The notes beneath the pieces were generated by a model. The model had not been told where the DNA came from. It did not search any database and saw nothing but the letters and a program-made list of their open reading frames with translations. Of a DNA stretch of 64,000 bases, positions 966 through 63,700 are shown piece after piece. The stretch is taken from NCBI GenBank assembly GCA_027972325.1, contig JAPMOS010000062.1, positions 56,001 to 120,000 on the forward strand, read 5' to 3'. Both the position numbers and the translations under genes were made by a program. Source of the stretch: Paratrimastix pyriformis (taxonomy: Eukaryota > Preaxostyla > Paratrimastigidae). The first letter of the stretch is position 1; every line of letters begins with the position of its first letter.

Positions 966-3604
966 TCAGACGAACATCCACGATTGATGGTCATACCGAG
1001 CAACTCCCGCACCCACCGCTGGGTCGAACCACAGACCTCGGGTGCAGTCAGCGGGCCTGGAAATTTGGCAGTCGGCAGTCGGGGGATCTGTGAGATCGAT
1101 AAGATTCAAAGAATGAGTTGAAGATCGGGGAGGTGTGTGAGCTCTGCTGCTCAGGTCGCCGGCAACTCCTACTCGATGACTGCCGACGCGCGCCCCACCC
1201 AGGGAGGCCCCGCCCTTCTCGCCAACGAGCCCCATGTGGGTGGCTTTTTGAGGGGCCTTTTTTTGGGTGTCGTGGTTTGGCGATTTTTTACTGATTCCGT
1301 GTTTTGGGGGTTTCGCGATGAAGGACTGGCGGCAGGTCTTTGTTGGTGATGGGCTGTGTGGAGTTGTCTGGAGGAGGGCGCAGACGTCCGCTGGCGTGAT
1401 GTTGAGCGAGTACTGGACGCAATTTGACGGGTGAGCTCCTTCGAGACGCTGGTGCTTCCCCGTAGCACCAGGTGGGATGACAAAGACGATGTGAAGCTCG
1501 CCGCCGCCCAACCGTTCCACCAATTCCTTGATCGTTCCCCCTTCAATGGGGTGGTCTGCTCGAATGGTCATCTGGAAGCATAGGCGCCGACTGGGAATGA
1601 GCGAATCGATGGCCGGGAATTTGGCGCTCTTTGGGATCCCTGTGGAAGAAACGAGCGAAGAAGGGTCAGACAGGCGAAGAAGGCAACAGACATATGTCTG
1701 ATGAACCCGGGTCGATATCCTTGATTTCGCCAAAGCGATGCTCGACCAGACCACGTGGGAGGACAAACGATTCCAGGAGAACGACAGGGCTGTATGCGTC
1801 TGTATGAGGAGTGAGGGACCACGTACCACCCCTCTTGAGGGCCCGCAGAACGTAGGTTTCGAATAAAATGCCGTCGAGGCCTGCCGAGCCCAAGATGAAA
1901 GCAGGCGAAGGGAGACCCAGACCGCGGTTCCTTTCCATGGGGGAGAGCGTGGAGAGGAAATTATAAAGACGCTCTTGGTCCCTGGCGAGCAAAACGTCGA
2001 AGCAAGCATCCCTCACCAGGCGCGAGGCAAAGTAGAATTCAAAGTGCTGGTGGTCCTTTGTAGGGTGCATCAGCAAAAGGTGGTGCGATCCGGCAAGCAG
2101 AGTCGCCGTGTAAGGGATTTGATACTCTTGCAAATGAATGGTCGGTGAGAAGAGCGGGAATGACCCGGGGGACCCGCAACGGACCCTGGATTCTCTGTCG
2201 GATGTCGTGCATAAAGGGTTCGAGGTGTGGAAATGTGGAGAGAAGGGCAGTCGTGCCCGCCGCGACATCAGTGTCCGCTGACGACAACAAGTTGCTATAA
2301 GCAGTGAGGTACTCCTCGTCCGACATCCTCGTCGGGCGGAGGGACGAGGTGGCGACAAATGCATATCGGGCAATTCCGCCAAAACTACGAGCGGCATCTC
2401 GCAGAGAACAACAAGAGGAACAACAGACGTTTCGAAAAACCAGGGGACAAGAGAGATGGCCCCCTGGGCACGCTCCGCGAACTGTCGGAGTTCCTTCAAG
2501 GTCCACCTGGGAGCAGAACTGGGTATCGAGCCTGTACAGCTCAAGGAGATACAGACGGCGGCGCGTAATAGTCCTCACGAAAGGGGGGAAGTTGCGACAG
2601 TGCAGGGGAGGAGATGTAGAGCAGCCTGCACCGTGGTGGCAGGCCCAAGACCAACTTGCGTTGGGTATCGATAATCGCGTACGAATGCTCGTCGTAGAGA
2701 AACGCATTGACATCTTCGCAAGGCGACCACCGGCCATCCACAAACTGGTAGCGTTGCCCCTCTCCCTGAAGGACCAGGCAAACCCGGGCACCACCCGCGG
2801 CCAGCCGGTGTGCGGCGTAAATTCCGAAGGCTGACTTGCCAATGCCTGGCGACCCACTGACGCACATCAGTGGCTGGGTTGGGCTGCGTTCGGTCAGGAA
2901 TTTGAGGAACTCCGGGAACCATTCGCGAACAAAGAATTTGCCTGCCGGGTATAAGGGGCAATCGCCAACCTCGCCCGTCTCGGGCAGAGGTTGCGATTGG
3001 AACCGATTCAGCAATTCCACTATAAAAAAGGCAGATATGAGGACAGAAAGCCGCGGAGTGGGGGAGTGAGTGCGTGTTTGAAGCAGACCAAGAGTTTGGC
3101 CAGAAGGGGCGGCGATAGCGGCGACGGAAGCGGCGGGAGTGACGATGGAAGCTTTGGCTACGAGAGAAAGAACGGGTTTCATGAAGAAAACAAAATCGGA
3201 ATCAACAAAGAAGGAGCAGTGTCACAACAACAAAAGATAATCGGCGCCATCGAATTCGCACGCACAGAGGAAGGCGCGCCACAGACGATGCGGAGGAAAG
3301 TTCAGGGAAATGAAAGTGGCGAGTAACCCGGAGCCCAAGCCGAACTGTCTCATTTCGAAAACATCCGCAAGCTGTTCTTTCGACGGGAAACGGTTGGACT
3401 GAACCTGCAACTCATTCTCAGTCCACATGAGCAGGGTTTCCACTTCCGGTGGGTGGGGCTTCAGGGACTGGACAAGAGTTCGAAATTGCTCCACCTTGGC
3501 GGCTGAGAAGCAAGAAAAATCAACGAACCAACACAACAAACAAACACAAGCCGACATGCCGTTGTCTTGGCTGCTTGCTCTGCTTCTTTCGCTGTTTCCA
3601 TCAT
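966..3604 (-). CDS. RHS/Crinkler-type P-loop NTPase, 8 exons
   Basis: Exons (minus): 3604-3556, 3502-3287, 3157-3089, 3019-2557, 2506-2429, 2384-2185, 2126-1692, 1639-966; all phases agree, giving about 727 aa. Walker A is CVSGSPGIGKSAFG. It is followed by a strand ending YAIIDTQ, the LLYISSPA strand, YYAPPWTLKELRQFA, FGGIARYAFV and a late GILFETYVLRALKRGG block. This order is typical of retrotransposon-hot-spot (RHS) and Crinkler (CRN) NTPases (family knowledge). Such proteins are nuclear or secreted effectors that often carry a separate toxin domain; none is obvious here. The last 150 residues (below about 1380) are low complexity and the true stop may be earlier. The start is the ATG-ATG pair at 3604/3601. 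Introns are 42-130 nt and all begin GTCTG, GTCCG or GTCGG. Confidence 0.75.
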
Positions 3605-3671
3605 CGCTTGCGACGTCGACCAAAAGCCGGCTCCTGTCGGCACGCCCAGGGGGTTATGTACGTTATCACGG

Positions 3672-60700: not shown

Positions 60701-63700
60701 GATGATGTTTGGATGATGATGATGTGATGATGATGATGATTGGATAATTGGATGATGATGATTGGATGATGATGATTGGATGATTGGATGATGGTCGGAT
60801 GATTGAATGATGATGATGATCGGGTGATTGGATGATGGTTGGATGGAGGGAGCCGGTTCGGCGGGACAGACAGCCATGTTGTGGTTGACGGGCGCGTTGT
60901 TGACATACACGGCGCCTCCCCATTCAGCCCTGCAGCCCATTGGAGGGGGACGGGGATGGGGGGATGGGGGGATGGGGAGGGGGAGGGGGAGGGGGAGGGG
61001 GAGGGGGAGGGGAGGGATGTGAAGGAGATGCGAAGATGAAGTCTGAAGGCAGGCTCCCACCTCCCCACCACCCCTGAATGCCTGCGAACGTCACAAAACG
61101 AGTTTTTCCCGGGCCAATGATCGCAAGGGGGTGGAAATTCCGGAATGGGCTGATCAATCGGTCAGGAAAAGGATCTCAAATGACGTCGCCCAGTTGGGCC
61201 GGTGCGGTGTTTCAAGCCGCCGAGAAAAATAGTTGGTGGTGCTTTGTTCCGAGCGGTGGTGGTAGTCGTGATGCCAGAGAGGGCGGAGTGCTGTAATGAT
61301 CACTTTTGGAATTTTTCCCATCCTCTGAGATTGACCTGTGTTGGCCCAATACGTGGAAAGGACCCTCAGGGGAGATAGGCTAAATCAGGAGACGATCACC
61401 CTCTCTCATCCCGGGAGTGCGGCCAAGCCGGAAAAAGCGAACGGGGGGACAGGGACAGTGACGGACGCGTTGCCCTCGAAGTAGGACGAGACGAGGCGCG
61501 GCTGGGGCGCGTACTTGGGGCTTGAGTCGAGCATAATGGCACCGCCTATGATCCATGATCAGACCAGACAGATGGAAGGAGGGAGAGGAGGTGAAGATTG
61601 GCACTTGGGGCTTGAGTCGAGCATGATGGCACCGCCTGTGCTCCCGCCATGCCCCCACAAAGATGGGAGGTGAGGGTGGCACTTATCAGCATCAACATCA
61701 TCCAATCATCATCATCATCCTCATCCTCATCCAATCCTCATCCAATCCATCATCATCATCCAATCCACATTCAGTCATCATCATCCAATCATCATCAACC
61801 AATCATCATCATCATCCAGTCAATCATCATCATCCATTCAATCATCATCATCCAGTCAATCATCAGCATCAGCATCATCATCATCCAATCATCATCATCC
61901 AATCATCATCCAATCATCATCATCCAACCGCCATCATCATCAAGGCGGACCGTAGGGCGACCAGCCCAGGGCGGCCATCCGATCAGAGGGCTTCAGCATG
62001 GCCGAGTTGTCCACGAAGCGGCACGATTCCACCAGCAGATGCTGCACGTACGAATAGATGGCCCCGCCTGTCGGTGCGTGTGGGTGAATGTTGGACAAGA
62101 TGAGATGACGTTGATGATTGGAATGATTGGAGAATGACGGATGATGATGATGATGATTGGATGATGATGATGGTTGTGGATGATGATGATGATTGGATGA
62201 TGATGATGGTTGTGGATGATGATGATGATTGGATGGATAATTGGATGGATGATTGGATGGATGATTGGATGATGATGACTGGATGATGATGATGACTGGA
62301 TGATGATGATGACTGGATGATGATGCTGATGATGATGATTGGATGATGATGATTGATGGCGGACCGAGGGTGCCCAGGTTGCCCTGGAATGTGCACTCGG
62401 TGATGGTGGCCGTGCCGGGGCCGTACAGCCCCACCGCACCGCCAAAGTTCCCCACGTTGTCCGTGAAAACGCACCTGGCGGGGCGGGGCGGGGTGGGGAC
62501 AAGAAGGATAGGGTGAGATGAGCATGAAGTGTCAATCCCACAGACAGACAGCACAGACAGCACAGACAGCACAGACAGCACAGACAGACAGCACAGACAG
62601 CACAGACAGCACAGACAGCACAGACAGCACAGACAGCACAGACAGACAGCACAGACAGCACAGACAGCACAGACAGCAGACCCAGACAGACCCAGACAGA
62701 CACAGACAGACACACACGGACCCTGTCAGGGTGGTCGAACCAGCATAGGCGACCAGCGCGCCGCCATACGCATCATACTCAATCCCGTTGGCGTACTGCA
62801 TCGTGCCCAGGGCCGAGTTCTCCTCGAAGATGCAGTTGGTGAAGACGGCCGTGCTGTAGTGCAGGAAGACGGCACCGCCTGCAAACATGATGGTGCGTGC
62901 GTCAAATTTTATGCGTCAATTTGCGAAAATGCAGTTGGTGAAGACGGCCGTGCTGGAGTGCAGGAACACGGCGCCGTCTGAAAGCAAGAAGGTGCGTGCG
63001 AGAAATTCAAGTGCCAATTTGTCATCGAAGATGCAGTTGGTGAAGACGGCTGTGGTGGAGTGCAGGAACACGGCACCGCCTGCAAACATGATGGTGCGTG
63101 CGTGAAATTGCGGAAAGCAGTTGATGTGTGTGTGTGTGTGTCGAGTAAAGAAGGAACGAAGTAACGGGAAAATAAAACAAAAACCAGAGAGGTAGAAGAG
63201 ACAGCACGAATGTCAGTGCACCCGTGGGCGAAGGAATCCCCTGTGGAGGGCGTTTGATAGGCTCGTTTGGGAGAGGACGGACGTGTGTGTGCATGTTGTG
63301 AAAAAGGACATGAATTGTGACAAACGAGCACAGAAACAAACACGGGAAGGCTGATGCCCTTTGCCTGAATTTGAACAGGAACGGGCCCGTGACGTGGCTG
63401 TGGGTGAATCCCAACCCCGGCAACATTCACTCGCCCAGTTATAAAAAAGAACGGGGGCCTGTGAGCAGACCGTCCTCGCCCGTGACGTGGCCGTGGGTGA
63501 AGGTCAGCCCGGCAACATTCACCGTGGCTCGGGAGATCTGTGAGAGAGGGGATGATGAGGATGAGGATGAGGATGAGGAAGATGATGATGATGATGCCGA
63601 TGCCGATGATGATTGGATGATTGGATGATTGGATGATTGGATGATTGGATGATGATGATGATGACTGGATGATGATGATGACTGGATGATGATGATGACT

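Follow-up and report, generated by a model that had tools for sequence, protein, structure and literature searches.

GTCYG donor splice sites and an altered U1 snRNA 5′ end in Paratrimastix pyriformis: a probable genome-wide co-switch

Introduction

How are introns recognised when they do not begin with the usual GTRAG (R, A or G)? The question is raised by a 64,000-nucleotide stretch of the Paratrimastix pyriformis genome, positions 56001-120000 of contig C455 ("the window"; coordinates are those of the window unless a contig or locus is named). An original prediction, made from the letters of this stretch alone, held that the introns of all its genes use GTCYG (Y, C or T), and that this implies either a changed 5′ end of U1 small nuclear RNA (snRNA) or a leading role for U6 or proteins in donor recognition. 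The donor observation holds: introns mostly begin GTC[C/T]G, not GT[A/G]AG. From the snRNA genes of the organism we conclude that P. pyriformis very probably has a major (U2-type) spliceosome with a re-coded U1 snRNA, U1 and introns having switched together across the genome. If this is true, abundant U1 should begin AUACAGACC, not AUACUUACCU, AUACUUACC or AUACGGACC.

Results

Introns placed without a donor motif begin with GTCYG

The DNA examined was a P. pyriformis genome of 495 contigs and 56,060,509 bases, close to, and not identical with, the published assembly (633 scaffolds, 56,627,582 bases; PMC10703272; citations here and below refer to the passages of each paper that bear on the point). 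Introns of five genes were placed by protein or transcript identity and terminal GT..AG alone, without a donor motif; for the window genes this was done with a spliced aligner that accepted any GT..AG at equal cost. The kept set of 86 introns comprises 64 in the window (5 in PTPA, 24 in PAPYR_7943, and 25 of 30 and 10 of 16 in two minus-strand paralogues of the latter) and 22 in a dynein heavy chain gene outside it. Eleven of the 46 paralogue junctions were dropped because flanking similarity was weak or the length was below 40 bases. Since the three beta-helix genes are paralogues, the 86 introns stand for three unrelated families (PTPA, dynein and beta-helix).

GTCYG opens 71 of the 86 kept introns, with C at +3 in 82 and G at +5 in 78. 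A purine occupies +3 in one, and GTRAG in none (0/86), so that the consensus GTRAGT is not followed. Compared with composition at +7 to +16, the enrichment is significant for both +3 C (p = 5e-24) and +5 G (p = 1e-44). These figures are close to those of the original prediction, which had counted about 85 introns with 73 GTCYG, 80 +3 C and 80 +5 G (a GTCYG share of 86%, against 83% here). The 64 window introns taken separately give GTCYG 54, +3 C 60, +5 G 58 and GTRAG 0; by gene, GTCYG was found in 5/5 introns of PTPA, 18/24 of PAPYR_7943, and 22/25 and 9/10 of the minus-strand paralogues. The 11 dropped junctions have GTCYG in 5, +3 C in 9, a +3 purine in 2 and no GTRAG, and adding them back yields GTCYG 76/97, +3 C 91/97 and GTRAG 0/97.

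The four kept introns without +3 C carry T in three cases and G in one, and the G sits in a doubtful placement: 39227-39021 (minus strand, GTGCCT), the sole kept +3 purine, adjoins a 12-base exon and looks artefactual. The intron at 56708-56335 (minus strand), next to a one-base exon, likewise looks like an alignment artefact. Acceptors read CAG in 75 introns and TAG in 7, and are thus ordinary YAG in 82 of 86, as had been claimed; this count carries the condition that the aligner required GT..AG. U12-type donors begin ATATCCTT or GTATCCTT. Neither motif occurs among the 86 pentamers, and U11 and U12 genes were not searched for. The introns are GT..AG spliceosomal introns with YAG acceptors, very probably of the U2 (major) type but with an off-consensus donor.

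The window genes and their kept introns are as follows. Introns of PTPA were placed by motif-free alignment to the human protein, those of the other genes by motif-free alignment.

3693..5850, plus strand, PTPA gene (PP2A activator), part analysed; Pfam PF03095 exons, human PTPA E 2e-84
3966..4021, plus strand, PTPA intron, donor GTCTGT
4237..4297, plus strand, PTPA intron, donor GTCTGC
4423..4590, plus strand, PTPA intron, donor GTCTGG
4689..4901, plus strand, PTPA intron, donor GTCCGC
5010..5269, plus strand, PTPA intron, donor GTCCGG

8296..22765, plus strand, PAPYR_7943 (beta-helix / cadherin-like protein), coding span; protein P0121 maps here, Pfam
8410..8461, plus strand, intron, donor GTTTGA (exception, +3 T)
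8618..8670, plus strand, intron, donor GTCAGA
8776..9239, plus strand, intron, donor GTTTGA (exception, +3 T)
9663..10058, plus strand, intron, donor GTCCGC
10172..10306, plus strand, intron, donor GTCCGC
10443..10731, plus strand, intron, donor GTCCGT
10877..11529, plus strand, intron, donor GTCTGC
11595..11900, plus strand, intron, donor GTTCGT (exception, +3 T)
12007..12490, plus strand, intron, donor GTCCGC
12956..13202, plus strand, intron, donor GTCCCT
13353..13788, plus strand, intron, donor GTCCGT
13917..14003, plus strand, intron, donor GTCCGC
14236..14610, plus strand, intron, donor GTCTGC
14765..15027, plus strand, intron, donor GTCCGC
15138..15526, plus strand, intron, donor GTCCGT
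15723..16015, plus strand, intron, donor GTCCGT
16080..16423, plus strand, intron, donor GTCTCG
16550..16910, plus strand, intron, donor GTCTGA
17051..17767, plus strand, intron, donor GTCCGT
17953..18237, plus strand, intron, donor GTCCGC
18334..20515, plus strand, intron, donor GTCCGC
20667..21892, plus strand, intron, donor GTCCGC
21960..22081, plus strand, intron, donor GTCCGT
22299..22574, plus strand, intron, donor GTCCGT

29237..45638, minus strand, PAPYR_7943 paralogue, predicted span from gene model and alignment, 25 kept introns
45288..45506, minus strand, intron, donor GTCTGT
44600..44946, minus strand, intron, donor GTCCGC
43795..44058, minus strand, intron, donor GTCCGC
43437..43646, minus strand, intron, donor GTCCGT
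42912..43369, minus strand, intron, donor GTCTGC
42598..42804, minus strand, intron, donor GTCTGT
40790..41195, minus strand, intron, donor GTCCGT
40380..40661, minus strand, intron, donor GTCTGC
39893..40217, minus strand, intron, donor GTCCGT
39475..39825, minus strand, intron, donor GTCCGT
39239..39334, minus strand, intron, donor GTCTCC (doubtful, adjoins 12-base exon)
39021..39227, minus strand, intron, donor GTGCCT (doubtful, see above)
38210..38910, minus strand, intron, donor GTCCGT
37883..38092, minus strand, intron, donor GTCCGT
37574..37797, minus strand, intron, donor GTCTGT
37112..37515, minus strand, intron, donor GTCTGG
36959..37049, minus strand, intron, donor GTCCGT
32439..36888, minus strand, intron of 4450 bases, donor GTCCGT
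32034..32295, minus strand, intron, donor GTCCGT
31540..31851, minus strand, intron, donor GTCTGT
31123..31443, minus strand, intron, donor GTCTGC
30543..30971, minus strand, intron, donor GTCCGC
30152..30519, minus strand, intron, donor GTCCGT
30007..30101, minus strand, intron, donor GTCAAT
29476..29798, minus strand, intron, donor GTCTGC

54799..63537, minus strand, second PAPYR_7943 paralogue, predicted span from gene model and alignment, 10 kept introns
62879..63470, minus strand, intron, donor GTCTGC
62068..62364, minus strand, intron, donor GTCCGC
61546..61950, minus strand, intron, donor GTCCGC
60930..61466, minus strand, intron, donor GTCCGT
58837..59446, minus strand, intron, donor GTCTGT
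57953..58648, minus strand, intron, donor GTCCGC
57426..57856, minus strand, intron, donor GTCCGC
56710..57274, minus strand, intron, donor GTCTGG
56335..56708, minus strand, intron, donor GTCGAC (probable artefact, one-base exon)
55699..56268, minus strand, intron, donor GTCCGT

Other features of these genes were noted. PTPA is tandemly duplicated (C455:54466-55785 and 59693-61012, the second copy being window 3693-5012), and an open reading frame with PTPA 3′ exon sequence starts at window 24. Long triplet microsatellite arrays lie inside introns (for example 10877-11529 and 17051-17767) and give rise to open frames of poly-H, poly-W, poly-V or poly-P; a protein search with a repeat-rich open reading frame as query gave no match. 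Inside, and antisense to, the intron at 32439-36888 is a retroelement-like stretch (about 32508-36524, plus strand) with a match to reverse transcriptase (PF00078) and a weak one, short of the family's cut-off, to RNase H (PF00075). The intron at 57426-57856 contains a transfer RNA gene on the same strand (57454-57524, minus; Rfam 60.7 bits).

Transcript-fixed junctions and self-training recover the same donors

Could the donors have been picked by the motif or by a bias at exon edges, the true donors lying elsewhere? The original prediction had used the motif to choose some of them. PAPYR_7943, moreover, was annotated by a gene finder whose retraining drew on curated models with transcript data (PMC10703272); the 24 introns of this gene are therefore weaker as independent evidence than the 22 donors of dynein. 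For dynein, the reference (P0001; GAFH01000693.1.p1, 99% identical to the predicted dynein) is a transcript-derived protein from the 454 transcriptome of Trimastix (now Paratrimastix) pyriformis (PMC3596361). We enumerated, with bases unconstrained, every splice placement reproducing P0001 at 23 junctions. Twenty-two were exact, each with a single GT..AG solution among the motif-free placements; the 23rd, which involved a spurious alignment piece and needed a mismatch, was left out, leaving one neighbouring acceptor uncertain. These 22 transcript-fixed donors comprise 17 GTCYG, with +3 C in 22 and +5 G in 20. As a check on the aligner, foreign dyneins from Monocercomonoides, Paraphysoderma (a fungus) and Glandiceps (an acorn worm) recovered 22, 22 and 21 of them, with 1, 1 and 2 extra introns, respectively.

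A self-trained gene finder was also run over 274 kb with the donor defined as GT only, its start-up coding set being chosen from exons of the window and other retrieved loci. GTCYG opened 143 of 483 predicted introns (about 29 expected from all GT), GTCCG and GTCTG were the two commonest donors, and GTCYG donors occurred in 32 of 37 loci. The claim that all genes use GTCYG stands as a strong tendency; GTRAG opened 6 of the 483. When seeded with a strong MAG|GTRAGT matrix, the gene finder dropped canonical donors and converged on GTCYG; the canonical-seeded and GT-only runs had 519 donors in common out of sets of 539 and 535, with GTRAG at 0.7% in each converged set. The self-trained sets include false introns (GTCYG 47.5% and 48.0% in the last round) and serve for convergence only. 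A reversed-sequence control predicted zero introns and so provides no donor baseline. With canonical seeding abandoned during training, and with identical donors obtained from human PTPA and from foreign dyneins without the motif, we consider a placement artefact highly improbable.

All U1 genes found encode a changed donor-reading segment

The original prediction had proposed that the donor-pairing segments of U1 and U6 be compared, and here they differ in their fate. The Rfam U1 model (RF00003), applied to 41 of 992 first-look candidates, identified 8 genes on 8 contigs (E 4e-13 to 2e-10), all matched over the full length of the model (1-166) at scores below its gathering cut-off. Every one starts ATACAGACCTTG. 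The 5′ end of the encoded RNA is AUACAGACCUU in 8/8, and the canonical AUACUUACCUG appears in none; written as the start of the gene, this is AUACAGACCUUG in 8/8 versus AUACUUACCUGG in the Rfam family consensus. Nucleotides 5-6 are AG in all eight genes and UU in canonical U1, in agreement with the predicted change of the U1 5′ end. A cloverleaf followed by an Sm-type site and a 3′ stem-loop was found (one copy folded; Rfam alignments of 4 copies). The folded copy gave a multi-branched fold with a 3′ hairpin, and the free fold also pairs nucleotides 4-8 with the Sm-like stretch. The loop of stem-loop I reads AUCACACA in loci L001-L008, where PMC3510501 gives AUCACGAA for the U1-70K site.

In contrast, the U6 ACAGAGA is ordinary in 4/4 genes, and the U5 loop, GCCUUUUAC, is ordinary in 7/7. 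One U5 gene (L052 1501-1616; C223:353262-353377) lies on the same strand inside an intron of the dynein heavy chain gene (L052 1186-1773). A CCCATAA element at most 90 bases upstream accompanies 8/8 U1 (L001-L008) and 4/4 U6 genes (L009-L012), and elements of this type are probably a common snRNA promoter element.

We looked for other forms of U1 in two genome searches in which nucleotides 5-6 were left open. A pattern search allowing up to 2 mismatches gave 15 matches, namely the 8 exact U1 genes and 7 with 2 mismatches (16 matches in the backward control). The latter seven, one of which reads ATTCGGACC, were rejected, as their loci have no Rfam U1 match. A promoter-anchored search gave 10 matches, including all 8 U1 genes, against 0 in the backward control; the other two read ATACAGACC (no U1 by Rfam) and ATACATACC. 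A candidate ninth U1 near C459:3595 has the U1 5′ word and the upstream element of the other U1s, but Rfam gives no U1 there. No other U1 form, including the conserved one, was found in the pattern and promoter-anchored searches.

The changed U1 bases face the changed donor positions

In the standard register, C8 of U1 faces donor position +1, A7 faces +2, nucleotide 6 faces +3, nucleotide 5 faces +4, C4 faces +5 and A3 faces +6. Each altered U1 base meets an altered donor position, G6 pairing with +3 C and A5 with +4 U; that nucleotide 5 lies opposite +4 is stated in PMC10581693. Duplex energy averages -7.5 kcal/mol across the 86 donors when nucleotides 1-11 of the organism's own U1 are used, versus -3.5 with the canonical end. 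Among the 16 variants of nucleotides 5-6, AG ranks second by this measure. Position +6, opposite A3, is T in 43/86 donors (p = 5e-9 versus composition at +7 to +16), and -1 G (61) and -2 A (32), both U1-complementary, are enriched versus deeper intron. Donors are thus complementary to their own U1 at +3 C, +5 G, +6 T, -1 G and -2 A, and partly so at +4. The three +3 T exceptions could wobble with G6. The donor GTTTGA is common to two early PAPYR_7943 introns (8410 and 8776), and would suit a G6·U wobble plus an A5-U pair.

Position +4 and the readings that compete for it

Not all results favour recognition by the re-coded U1, and those that weigh against it are gathered here. At +4 the 86 donors have C 51, T 28, A 4 and G 3; purines are avoided, and T is not preferred, the C share of pyrimidines (51/79) matching local composition (p = 0.55). 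Position +6 does prefer T (C in 32/75 pyrimidines, p = 9e-6; Fisher p = 0.009 for +4 versus +6), and since it too lies opposite an A, both halves of this contrast come from one set of introns. Relative to +12 to +120, C is enriched at +4 and T is not; with +7 to +16 as the reference, each shows mild enrichment. The U1 change leaves C being as welcome as U at +4 unexplained. In the pooled set, the U1-complementary bases +7 A (9) and +8 T (23) show no enrichment. Rfam scores of the U1 genes (50.8-60.2 bits) lie below the gathering cut-off of 69.5, and a U1 gene with G5 was not found, though G5 would pair better (-10.8). PF06220 gives one match only, which resembles WBP4, as we take it to be, more than U1C; the U1-70K N-terminal family is unmatched, in a genome with short exons and with no match from control genomes either. 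With U1C proper also not found by the PF06220 search, again among short exons, the U1 particle may be reduced.

Given an encoded A5 and no U preference at +4, either an A·C pair between two G-C pairs would be good enough, or U1 nucleotide 5 would be modified, for example to inosine. If A5 were deaminated to inosine, pairing C and U alike, G6 would still read +3 by pairing, and the re-coded splice code would contain an RNA-edited letter. The composition-like C share at +4, next to a T-preferring +6, is what this predicts, and of all 16 variants one with a G-like nucleotide 5 forms the most stable duplex on average. Tolerance of an A·C mismatch accounts for identical counts, however, and a search for a PF02137 deaminase, run with no positive control, gave no match. 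Donors with +4 C are also richer in +6 T (30/51) than those with +4 T (10/28; p = 0.06), a pattern that suits a mismatched C in need of help and speaks mildly for plain A5; in the self-trained set the association runs in the opposite direction and is not significant. We regard an edited or modified A5 as unlikely.

A further alternative, which the original prediction had raised for U6 and proteins, gives the choice of donors mainly to U6, U5 or proteins; the U1 change would then be a tolerated by-product in a metamonad for which U1 is of little importance. U1-specific proteins lack a clear match here, U1-associated proteins are nearly absent in the metamonads surveyed in PMC6679479, and the bases at +4 are not those that the encoded A5 would dictate. 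The genome has matches to the METTL16 and SNRNP27 families (the NPPF motif was read), which also suits this alternative; with both families matched, loss of METTL16/SNRNP27K is ruled out as the cause of the +4 shift. Against it, nothing in the pairing segments of U5 and U6, which are unchanged, calls for +3 C; the changed U1 bases face precisely the changed donor positions; C4 and A3 keep their match to +5 G and +6 T; and two LUC7-type loci are present. These data favour the U1 change, and make recognition mainly by other factors decidedly unlikely.

We therefore return to a re-coded U1, whose 5′ end very probably recognises donors by ordinary base pairing. U1 5′-AUACAGACCUU would pair C9 with -1 G, C8 with +1 G, A7 with +2 U, G6 with +3 C, A5 with +4 U (or C), C4 with +5 G and A3 with +6 U. 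Changes from U to G at nucleotide 6 and from U to A at nucleotide 5 suit a donor shift from GTRAGT to GTCYGT, with the U5 loop and the U6 ACAGAGA staying ordinary. From gene sequences and donor placements, both read directly, we infer expression of these U1 genes and a directing role for this pairing in donor choice. Historically, the U-to-A change at nucleotide 5 could have come first, improving the match to a +4 U already present, followed by the U-to-G change at nucleotide 6 together with +3 A-to-C in donors; drift in a GC-rich genome could then have enriched +4 C. That the change at nucleotide 5 could precede is suggested by A, U and G at +3 to +5 in Streblomastix, one relative standing for the ancestral state.

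Discussion

The open literature surveyed on P. pyriformis, Preaxostyla and divergent U1 (subscription journals and supplements lay outside its scope) contains no report of a GTCYG donor and none of a natural genome-wide change in the donor-reading segment of U1. The intron and splice passages of the P. pyriformis genome paper (PMC10703272) are silent on donors. Our results support a re-written recognition code on an otherwise same spliceosome, with a co-change of U1 and donors that is new relative to this literature.

The donor-reading segment of U1 is usually treated as fixed, and an intron-rich organism in which both sides appear changed, at two adjacent positions, would amount to a compensatory-mutation experiment on U1 carried out by nature. 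Three questions become open to test: how the valley between two such codes is crossed, which features of a donor are set by U1 alone, and why U1 does not govern +4. One ancestral U1 change may have suited donors that already existed, easing the crossing. On a practical level, gene predictors that expect GTRAG may fail in this lineage.

Known systems share one or another feature of this arrangement. U1 with ACUUACC was invariant wherever found in 236 genomes (227 of 230 yeast species and 9 of 10 outgroups; PMC10581693), and the canonical U1 11-mer is present in three picophytoplankton (PMC3033335). Giardia, a metamonad, has non-GTRAG donors (UAUGUU) yet retains ACUUAC in its U1, which tolerates a U-U mismatch (PMC3510501). 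The larvacean Fritillaria borealis resembles P. pyriformis in a genome-wide departure from ordinary donors, but there the U1 5′ end is strictly kept, GT-AG is mostly abandoned, and U2AF duplication and N6-methyladenosine (m6A) are invoked (PMC13326754). In Cyanidioschyzon merolae a donor-facing snRNA base is changed, in the U6 ACAGA-box and not in U1 (named in PMC10581693). Human variant U1 genes (PMC5159530) add changed U1 species to the standard one with no genome-wide switch, and engineered suppressor U1s (PMC12527174), whose 5′ ends are matched to altered donors, are likewise additions to standard U1. The diplonemid S. specki has a natural U1 gene with an altered donor-pairing end (a C stretch), but as a second gene beside a conserved U1, with a donor logo that fits both (PMC12621601); in P. 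pyriformis our searches found no conserved form.

The closest comparisons concern +4. Streblomastix strix, an oxymonad and thus also in Preaxostyla, has spliceosomal GT-AG introns that favour +5 G and +4 U; its +3 is A (as in GUAUG), whereas that of P. pyriformis is C (PMC1501061). The +4 A/U switches of Saccharomycotina are, as in P. pyriformis, lineage-wide shifts of donor preference, but they track METTL16/SNRNP27K on an invariant U1, whereas in P. pyriformis U1 and +3 are changed and both families are matched (PMC10581693). The same paper names a pseudouridine-to-adenosine change at U1 nucleotide 5 as a hypothetical compensation for +4 A-to-U, and adenosine is what the P. pyriformis U1 genes encode at that position.

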